DNA of 33,275 bases from an uncultured Synechococcaceae cyanobacterium. GTDB taxonomy: Bacteria > Cyanobacteriota > Cyanobacteriia > PCC-6307 > Cyanobiaceae. The position numbers and the translations under genes are program-made. The stretch spans positions 1-33,275 of the forward strand of contig CAIZNP010000050.1 in NCBI GenBank assembly GCA_903934375.1, given 5' to 3'. Under the pieces are notes generated by a model. It was not told where the DNA came from. It made no database searches and saw only the letters and a list, made by a program, of their open reading frames with translations. Below, piece by piece: positions 16,741-19,806 of this stretch; within the stretch, counting starts at the first letter, position 1, and every line of letters starts with the position of its first letter.

Positions 16741-17388
16741 TCAGCAGGGCGGTGAGGAACTCTGCGGCTGGACGGGTCCGTTCCAGCGGTGCAGGGGGCC
16801 GAGGTCGTAACCGAGGCCATCGAACACGCGAATCACCAGAAAATCCACCATCTCCTCGATCGTGGTGGGGCGGTGATACCAGGCCGGCACCGGTGGGGCG
16901 ATGCGGGCACCGGCCTCGGCCAGGGTGGTGAGGTTGCGCAGATGCACCAGGTTCCAGGGAGTCTCCCGCGGGCAGATCACAAGCGGCCGGCTCTCCTTGA
17001 GGTGCACATCCGCAGCCCGCTCCAGCAGGTCGGTGGCCACGCCGGCGGCGATGCGGCCAACGGCTCCCATCGAGCAGGGCAGGATCACCATGCCGCGGGT
17101 GCGGTGACTGCCGCTGGCGATGGCGGCCGCCTGATCGTTCCAGCGGTGGCAGTGCAGCGTGCCTGCCTCACAGTCGGTGCGTTCACGCCAGAACAGGGCC
17201 TGGCTCTCCGGCTCCGAGGGCACGCGGATGCCGAGTTCGGCCTGCCAGACGCCAATCGCTCCGCGGCTGACCACCAGCTCCACGGTCTCTCCCGCCTGCA
17301 GCAGCAGCTGCAGGGCCCGTTCCGCCAGGGGCTGGGCACTGGCGCCGGACACCGCCAGCACAATCGGCTCGCGGCCTGAGGTGGTCAT
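16741..17388 (-). CDS. ubiX: Flavin prenyltransferase UbiX
   Basis: 215 aa. UbiX attaches a dimethylallyl group to FMN to make prenylated FMN, the cofactor of UbiD decarboxylases. In cyanobacteria it probably serves plastoquinone-related quinone synthesis. Family features are the flavin-binding N-terminus (PIVLAVSGASAQPLAERAL), the LPCSMGAVGRIAAGV segment, CPRETPWNLVHLRNLTTLAEAGA, and the C-terminal PPVPAWYHRPTTIEEMVDF. No ubiD is in this window. The ATG at 17388 is 3 bp after the stop of the upstream RNB-family gene, so the two are probably co-transcribed. Confidence 0.94.
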   Translation of the reverse strand: MTTSGREPIVLAVSGASAQPLAERALQLLLQAGETVELVVSRGAIGVWQAELGIRVPSEPESQALFWRERTDCEAGTLHCHRWNDQAAAIASGSHRTRGMVILPCSMGAVGRIAAGVATDLLERAADVHLKESRPLVICPRETPWNLVHLRNLTTLAEAGARIAPPVPAWYHRPTTIEEMVDFLVIRVFDGLGYDLGPLHRWNGPVQPQSSSPPC

Positions 17389-17391
17389 GGC

Positions 17392-19713
17392 TCAGTCCTC
17401 GCCGTCCTGGCCGTTGTCCTCGTGGTCGCCGCTGGTATCTGGGTCGTCGGAGCGGTGTCCGCCCTGATCGCCATCCAGCTCCTCGTAGCCCTCCGGCAGC
17501 ACCACGGCCAGATCGATCTGGTGACGCAGCACATCCACCTTGTGGATGATCACCTCGACCGCGTCGCCGAGCATGTAGGTGCGGCGGTTCTTGCGACCGA
17601 CCAGACGGTTCTGGCGCGAGCGGTACTCGTACCAGTCGTCCTTGAGGGAACTCACGTGCACCAGACCCTCCACCTGGGAAGGCGGCACCTCCACGAAGAA
17701 GCCATAGCTCTGCACGCCGCTGATCACACCGGTGAGGGTCTGCCCCACTAGCGGTTCCGCCTGGCGTGCCTGGGCCATTGCCAGGGCATCGGCCTGCAGC
17801 TCGGCGGCGAAGCGGGAGCGGCCGTTGAGGCGGTGCAACAGACCAACGCTGCGGCCCTCCTCAGCCGGGTTGATCTGGCTGGGGGCCAGCAGCGGCCAGT
17901 CGATCACGCCGTGGCTGCTGTCGCCGGCGATGTCGACCCTGGTCTTGTGGCGCACCGAGGGACGGTCCTTGCCTTCGCCGAGCAGCAGCGCCAGGACGTG
18001 CTGATTCCAGATATCGGCGTAGTGCAGCGACGGGCAGCACCAGGGGGCGTAGGCCAGCTGTTCGCCGGCCAGCATGTTCGCTCCCGGCTCGCAGCTGAGG
18101 GTCACCGGCCGCAGCGGTTCGCGCAGCTGCTGCTGCAGCACACGGCAGCGATCGCTGGCGGCGAACGCCATCGCCAGCTCCTGGGCGCTGGCGTTGCCGT
18201 CGGCGGAGAGCTCCAGCGGGATCTCCAGGGCAAGGGCCGCCTTGGCCACGTCGTTCACGGCCTCGGGTTCCGGAGGCGGGTTCTGGGCGTAGATGGCCGG
18301 CAGCTCGAGGGCGGCCATGTGGCGACCGAAGGCGCGGTGGGCCGGCAGCACCAGCTCACGCAGCAGCCCGGCGGCGCTGAGGGCCGGATCCAACTGCACC
18401 AGCCATCCCTGGCGGCTTTCATCGGGTTCCGGAATGGCCAGATCGCCGAGGCCGTCGATGGCGGGCATCGCCAGATCGAGATCGATCGAGCCGTTGCTCA
18501 GGCGCTGCTGGCGCAGCTGCTCGGCCAGAGCAATCAGCTGCTCCAGGAGGGGCAGCTGATCCTTGAGCGCCTTGAGGGCGGCAGGTGTGGTGCGGGCCTT
18601 GGGCTTGCGCTCGGCGAAGGCCTGCAGTGCCGCCTGGTTGACCACGCCGTCGGGGCGGATGGTGCTGCGGGTGAAGCGGTAGTGCTCCAGAACTCCATCG
18701 GCGCTGAAGTCCAGGGCCACGGAGAGGGCAGCGGCGCTGCTGCCCAGCGCGAAGGCCGCCGCCTTGCTCAGGCTGGGCGGCAGCAGCGGCAGCCAGGTGC
18801 TGCCCACACAGAAGGCCTCGCCCTGCTCCCGCAGGTGCTGATCGAGGGCGCTGCCGAAGCCGACCCGTTCGGCCACGGCCGGGGCGTGTACCCACAGGCG
18901 CAGGCCGTTGTCGAGGCTTTCCAGCGAGACCGCGGGCAGGATCGGTGCCTCGGTGCCATCCCAGCCCTGCAGCAGCAAGGTCGGCAGGGCGGTGAGATCG
19001 TCGCGGTTCTTGCTGTCCAGCGCTTTGGCAATGGCCTTGGGCGCTGCCGGCCGGTCGCGCAGGTCGTGCTTGGTGAGCAGCAGATCAAGATCGGCCTCCG
19101 GACCCGCATTCACCGCCAGACTGCGCGCCACATGGCCCTGGGGGGGCAGCTGTCCCACGGGGAAGCGATCCACCTTCACCTCCACCACGGCCTCCTCGGC
19201 GGGCTTCAGGTGCTCGGCATCGCCGGCGGGGAGCTCCACCGCCGTGAGCAGCCGGTCGTCGAGGGGCACGGCCACCAGCCGTTCGTTCTGCTGCTCCACA
19301 TGGGCCAGCAGGCTGGTGGTGCTGCGCTCGAGGATGCACTGCACGCCGCCTTCGGGTGAGCGGCGTCGGCCACCCTCACGGGTGACGCGCACCAGCACCC
19401 TGTCGCCGTTCCAGGCGTGGTTGAGCTGGTGATCGCGGATGTAGATGTCCTCGCCGCCATCGTCGCGCAGGGCGAAACAGAAACCCTTGCTGCTGCAGCG
19501 CAGTCGGGCCTCAATCAGGCCCTCGTCCTGCACCCGGCTGATGCCGGCCTCCGCTTCCTCCAGAACGCCCACCTTCACCAGGGCGGTGAGGGCGATGCGC
19601 AGCTGTTCGCGATCGGTCTTGGTGCTGAGGCCAAGGGCCTTCTCCAGCTTCGCCACGCTGAGCGCGTCGAGGGCGGGGAGCTGGTCGATCAGATCGGCGA
19701 CCGTGAACTTCAT
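17392..19713 (-). CDS. RNase II/R-family (RNB) protein with degenerate active site
   Basis: 773 aa with RNase II/R architecture: N-terminal helical/cold-shock-like region, central RNB domain (about 235-585), C-terminal S1 domain (about 658-738: GVISGVQSYGFFVEVPPSQV), then an acidic tail. The RNB catalytic residues look lost. Active enzymes carry four Asp in a DGEDARDFDDA-type motif after LTxLP. Here the aligned segment after LTALPTLLLQ reads GWDGTEAPILPAV. The later SPIRRYxD arginine motif is replaced by CCPSLHYAD (about 559-567). It may correspond to the cyanobacterial Zam (acetazolamide resistance) type. The ATG at 19713 follows a 216-bp spacer containing 14-bp repeats, and ubiX follows in the same operon. 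A role in binding rather than cutting RNA is inferred. Confidence 0.88.
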   Translation of the reverse strand: MKFTVADLIDQLPALDALSVAKLEKALGLSTKTDREQLRIALTALVKVGVLEEAEAGISRVQDEGLIEARLRCSSKGFCFALRDDGGEDIYIRDHQLNHAWNGDRVLVRVTREGGRRRSPEGGVQCILERSTTSLLAHVEQQNERLVAVPLDDRLLTAVELPAGDAEHLKPAEEAVVEVKVDRFPVGQLPPQGHVARSLAVNAGPEADLDLLLTKHDLRDRPAAPKAIAKALDSKNRDDLTALPTLLLQGWDGTEAPILPAVSLESLDNGLRLWVHAPAVAERVGFGSALDQHLREQGEAFCVGSTWLPLLPPSLSKAAAFALGSSAAALSVALDFSADGVLEHYRFTRSTIRPDGVVNQAALQAFAERKPKARTTPAALKALKDQLPLLEQLIALAEQLRQQRLSNGSIDLDLAMPAIDGLGDLAIPEPDESRQGWLVQLDPALSAAGLLRELVLPAHRAFGRHMAALELPAIYAQNPPPEPEAVNDVAKAALALEIPLELSADGNASAQELAMAFAASDRCRVLQQQLREPLRPVTLSCEPGANMLAGEQLAYAPWCCPSLHYADIWNQHVLALLLGEGKDRPSVRHKTRVDIAGDSSHGVIDWPLLAPSQINPAEEGRSVGLLHRLNGRSRFAAELQADALAMAQARQAEPLVGQTLTGVISGVQSYGFFVEVPPSQVEGLVHVSSLKDDWYEYRSRQNRLVGRKNRRTYMLGDAVEVIIHKVDVLRHQIDLAVVLPEGYEELDGDQGGHRSDDPDTSGDHEDNGQDGED

Positions 19714-19757
19714 GGGGATGGCGAAACGTTCTCTCGTGCGGGCCGGTCAGCTGGGGT

Positions 19758-19806
19758 GGTTCACCTGGTTTGGTTCACCTGGTTTGGTTCACCTGTTTGG
19801 TTCACC
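19758..19806. repeat. 14-bp tandem repeats upstream of the RNB-family gene
   Basis: GGTTCACCTGGTTT occurs at 19758 and 19772, a 13-bp variant at 19786, and a partial GGTTCACC at 19799. Each contains the small dyad GGT-TC-ACC. The array lies 45-93 bp upstream of the RNB-family ATG. The rest of the 19714-19929 gap shows no gene or clear promoter. Confidence 0.8.

Follow-up and report, generated by a model that had tools for sequence, protein, structure and literature searches.

The window, a stretch of 33,275 nucleotides from an uncultured Synechococcaceae cyanobacterium, carries a zam gene (acetazolamide-resistance protein). Its product is an ordinary member of a family whose dead active site was described in 2022 (PMC9145284). 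We consider it very likely that this protein is an RNase-R-like pseudo-nuclease which senses redox state and regulates RNA metabolism without catalysis, through either RNA or RNase E. Thomas et al. 2022 (PMC9145284) describe Zam as a cyanobacteria-wide RNB clade with an RNase R-like architecture and a degenerate active site, probably a pseudo-nuclease. Two cysteines of its first cold-shock domain (CSD1), C73 and C79, are described there as invariant in the family and are redox-active in vitro in the PCC 7002 protein. In PCC 7002, deletion of zam leads to less phycocyanin and an altered PSI:PSII ratio, and the Cys mutants phenocopy the deletion. The purified PCC 7002 protein showed neither nuclease activity nor RNA binding, with aggregation as a caveat (PMC9145284).

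The zam ORF of the window starts with ATG and is uninterrupted by any stop or frameshift. Its features are collected in Table 1. Pfam places an OB_RNB/CSD domain at residues 70-125, followed by CSD2, the RNB domain at 237-578 (E 6e-45) and S1 at 655-736, that is, the architecture of the RNB family. Like Zam of Synechococcus PCC 7002 and Synechocystis PCC 6803 (sll1910), the protein combines CSD, RNB and S1 domains with lost catalytic acids, and its two cysteines carry precisely the residue numbers they have in PCC 7002, 73 and 79. A preliminary description of the locus had rightly assigned the protein to the RNB family but had missed both the named family, Zam, and the redox cysteines.

Table 1. 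Features of the zam locus (positions in the window; residues of the zam product).
Feature	Position	Strand	Basis
zam, RNB-family probable pseudo-nuclease, 773 aa	17392..19713	-	ORF, Pfam, Zam clade in tree, same-genus orthologues 80% identical
N-terminal helical region, residues 1-66 (putative winged-helix-like fold)	19516..19713	-	predicted secondary structure
CSD1/OB domain, residues 67-128, with C73, C79 and clade-specific C126; highest conservation	19330..19515	-	Pfam, alignment, dN/dS; redox role from PMC9145284
RNB domain, residues 237-578, catalytically degenerate	17980..19005	-	Pfam PF00773, alignment
Former four-Asp site, residues 249-260	18934..18969	-	alignment
Former TSPIRRYxD motif, residues 559-567, CCPSLHYAD	18013..18039	-	alignment
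S1 domain, residues 654-737, strongly conserved	17503..17754	-	Pfam, column identity, dN/dS
ubiX family flavin prenyltransferase, 3 bp 3' of zam	16741..17388	-	TIGR00421 above cut-off; conserved adjacency

In an unrooted tree from a quick search, a branch with SH-aLRT 98 has 59 Zam sequences on one side, apart from Rnb and Rnr, and the window protein falls among them. It finds a match in 73 of 81 genomes of its family, the weakest matches being only Rnb-like, and in all 194 genomes of its class, where some matches are only of the Rnb type. Of the family genomes, 51 reach a completeness of 90% or more, and all of these except one (G349) have a Zam-type match. Zam is thus near-universal in the family. 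There are exceptions. With the Zam profile, four genomes (G415, G423, G388 and G356) give Rnb-type matches only. One of them, G415 (loci L104 and L160), is a single contig of 4,187,797 bases from which zam appears to be absent, contrary to a published claim that the gene is present in every cyanobacterial genome searched. In G241 (L097, L115, L161) the zam region is broken up, possibly by a frameshift, into one open frame of 281 aa and another of 475 aa. A genome of the same genus (G085, locus L096) encodes a Zam shortened to 699 aa, from which both redox cysteines are absent.

The active site was examined with a MAFFT alignment that used E. coli RNase II and RNase R (sequences from NC_000913) and intact paralogues as anchors, after verification of the RNase II reference residues D201, D207, D209, D210 and R500. 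In the window protein, the four aspartates are replaced by Q249, P257, L259 and P260. The arginine is replaced by L563, within a CCPSLHYAD sequence that stands in place of TSPIR(K/R)YxD. Thus, where active enzymes have four metal-binding aspartates and the SPIRRYxD arginine (DDDDR, complete in both E. coli RNase II and RNase R), the window protein has QPLPL. This agrees with the preliminary description, which had seen the catalytic residues as lost around residues 249-262 and in CCPSLHYAD. Intact aspartates elsewhere, which that description had wanted checked against E. coli RNase II, were not found in the alignment, and the anchoring on the two E. coli enzymes and the intact paralogues rules out that misalignment masks them. 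Chance or a sequencing fault is ruled out as well, by the absence of all five residues in 44/44 picocyanobacterial orthologues together with purifying selection on the gene. The score of the protein against the NCBIfam RNase R equivalog TIGR02063, 220.9 bits for a cut-off of 597.85, is as expected for a diverged RNase R relative.

The host genome also has a second RNB gene, on contig 198 of the same assembly, with DDDDR intact and the motif TSPIRRYGD; the search for such a gene had been proposed at the outset. Its product, which shares the RNB domain with Zam, is likely a 3'-5' exonuclease. In contrast to Zam, cyanobacterial Rnb keeps DDDDR, and that of Synechocystis has RNase II activity (PMC3293843). 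A second, intact Rnb also accompanies Zam in PCC 7002 and PCC 6803 (PMC9145284).

Despite these losses, the fold of RNase R is predicted to be kept. An AlphaFold2 model of the window protein, computed with 61 Zam sequences, has a mean pLDDT of 92 and a pTM of 0.90. Search with Foldseek gives RNase R structures as top matches (8cdu, E 9.6e-44, and 5xgu). Superimposition with VIA-align yields Z 35.2 and rmsd 3.1 over 597 residues with E. coli RNase R (5xgu) and Z 36.7 and rmsd 4.4 over 612 residues with 8cdu, and the match of the model to RNase R extends over residues 65-740. RNase R (E. coli Rnr 5xgu, B. subtilis 8cdu) therefore represents the nearest solved structures, with the same fold and domain order, whereas all five of its catalytic residues are replaced in Zam. 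These matches, taken with the residue losses, point to a predicted fold retained without its catalytic residues. The earlier impression that fold and S1 domain are preserved is borne out by the model and by an S1 column identity of 0.88.

The yeast pseudo-nuclease Ssd1 (7am1) also superimposes on the model, with Z 31.0 and rmsd 4.2 over 606 residues. As a dead RNB protein with conserved cold-shock domains that regulates without catalysis, through RNA binding by these domains, Ssd1 provides a precedent for Zam (PMC8934651). It nevertheless belongs to a separate, Dis3L2-related lineage and has channel-blocking insertions in CSD1 and S1. Sequence-specific RNA binding has been demonstrated for Ssd1 (PMC8934651) but not so far for Zam.

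Selection on zam is uneven along the gene. Compared with the two nearest relatives, whole-gene dN/dS is about 0.16, indicating purifying selection. Mean column identity in a closer group of 35 proteins (at least 50% identity) is 0.95 for CSD1, 0.88 for S1 and 0.66 for RNB. In comparisons with five relatives, dN/dS is 0.01-0.04 for CSD1, 0.02-0.13 for S1 and 0.15-0.41 for RNB; the zam values were obtained by NG86 at moderately high dS. Since CSD1 and S1 are more constrained than RNB by both measures, the pattern points to the OB domains as the functional part of Zam, with an RNB shell that would be retained but freer to vary.

Loss of the catalytic residues is graded across the family. None of 107 distinct Zam proteins keeps all five. 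The 44 picocyanobacterial proteins, that of the window among them, keep none, while the 63 others keep four (9 proteins), three (10), two (9), one (22) or none (13); these counts cover related sequences, not independent events. The equivalent of Arg500 is kept in 46/63 of the other proteins and in 0/44 of the picocyanobacterial ones. In some lineages outside this clade four residues remain and D207 alone is lost (DVDDR or DADDR, the latter for instance in L007). The redox cysteines C73 and C79 occur together in 103/107 proteins.

Picocyanobacterial Zam thus differs from other Zam in also lacking the TSPIRRYxD arginine, in having mostly P-x-L-P at the old metal site and in an extra invariant cysteine. 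Among its 44 sequences, position 207 is P in 42, position 209 is L in 42 and position 210 is P in 39. Such frequencies indicate a site largely fixed to a new motif, more than random decay. The third CSD1 cysteine, C126 (window 19336-19338, minus strand), is found in 44/44 picocyanobacterial and 0/63 other proteins. In the tree, a long stem branch leads to the group (1.27 changes per column, SH-aLRT 100). It is conceivable, though doubtful, that the dead pocket of this clade was rebuilt as a specific P-x-L-P site (257-260) that together with C126 would serve a different redox or ligand mechanism, and that, elsewhere in the family, Zam proteins with a single Asp loss may be weakly active, so that calling all Zam dead would be over-general.

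How would a protein of this kind act? From the experiments on PCC 7002 Zam, C73 and C79 may be linked by a reversible disulfide within the CSD1 loop that contacts RNA; Zam, without catalysis, would regulate RNA metabolism by sensing redox state. It could do so by binding RNA through its CSD and S1 domains, or by binding and modulating RNase E. Redox switching is probably the means by which Zam tunes RNA metabolism. Without the protein, one would expect less pigment synthesis and an altered photosystem balance. The preliminary description had proposed a conserved pseudo-nuclease acting as an RNA-binding regulator. Alignment, phylogeny, the intact second RNB gene and published work (PMC9145284) uphold the first part; the second is a plausible reading, to be set against the purified protein that bound no RNA, possibly on account of aggregation.

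That Zam is an accessory subunit of the degradosome, binding RNase E via CSD and S1 with no need for RNA binding of its own, is a sub-case of the regulator reading and a serious possibility, though we would not put it ahead. Redox control of a Zam-RNase E interaction is the mechanism favoured in PMC9145284, where the purified protein bound no RNA, and the concentration of conservation in CSD1 and S1 is in line with it. The interaction itself was reported for an Anabaena protein, a putative Zam, so that this evidence comes from outside picocyanobacteria; the RNase E link depends on PMC9145284 naming that protein as Zam. According to a review (PMC10989914), Alr1240 of Anabaena interacts with RNase E and breaks down unstructured RNA.

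This activity sits badly with a dead-enzyme reading of Zam. Should Alr1240 be a Zam, as PMC9145284 says, then the family has at least one active member, and this would be in keeping with the lineages in which four of the five residues persist. Both Alr1240, a cyanobacterial RNB protein and candidate Zam, and these D207-only losses could be invoked for a window Zam that is still a nuclease, relying on alternative residues or on another metal site within the RNB channel. We judge this very unlikely for the window protein: P-x-L-P replaces the pocket acids in its clade, whose 44 members all have 0 of 5 residues, and RNB is under less constraint than the OB domains. Hardly credible is a decaying pseudogene or functionless relic. 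The degenerate active site, and the apparent loss or breakage of zam in some lineages (G415, G241), would suit such a reading, but conservation and dN/dS contradict it: zam has an intact ORF and a low whole-gene dN/dS, CSD1 and S1 are near-invariant, and a relative from which the gene was deleted shows a phenotype (PMC9145284).

As a non-catalytic regulator, Zam would tie RNA metabolism and photosynthesis in cyanobacteria to the redox state of the cell. The window protein is of use mainly because picocyanobacteria, small-genome types included, keep zam with the most degraded active site of the family, which sets the non-catalytic function apart from any residual nuclease activity.

The coupling of zam to ubiX, already pointed out in the preliminary description, is real, widespread and old. 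In the window, ubiX, which scores above the TIGR00421 cut-off, starts 3 bp past the zam stop on the same strand and is followed by DUF2996, acsF and tldD. The same arrangement, with ubiX just 3' of zam on the same strand, is observed in 14/17 picocyanobacterial and 11/23 other cyanobacterial loci, and it is this recurrence that shows the coupling to be real and old. Three small-genome (1.6-1.7 Mb) picocyanobacteria (L132-L134) keep zam, and no ubiX match was found beside it.

The ribosomal-protein genes rpsR and rpmG, expected as conserved neighbours of zam, were not found upstream of the gene in a rough pattern search. No Rfam match was obtained around the locus. Between the GDT1-like upstream gene and the zam start, at 19757-19806, lies a 14-bp tandem repeat, TGGTTCACCTGGTT (plus strand, 3.6 copies); the sequences upstream of zam in two same-genus relatives (L118, L119) did not show it. 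A second element upstream of zam, GGCGTTGGCCG, is shared by the window and two same-genus loci only, among 45 loci.
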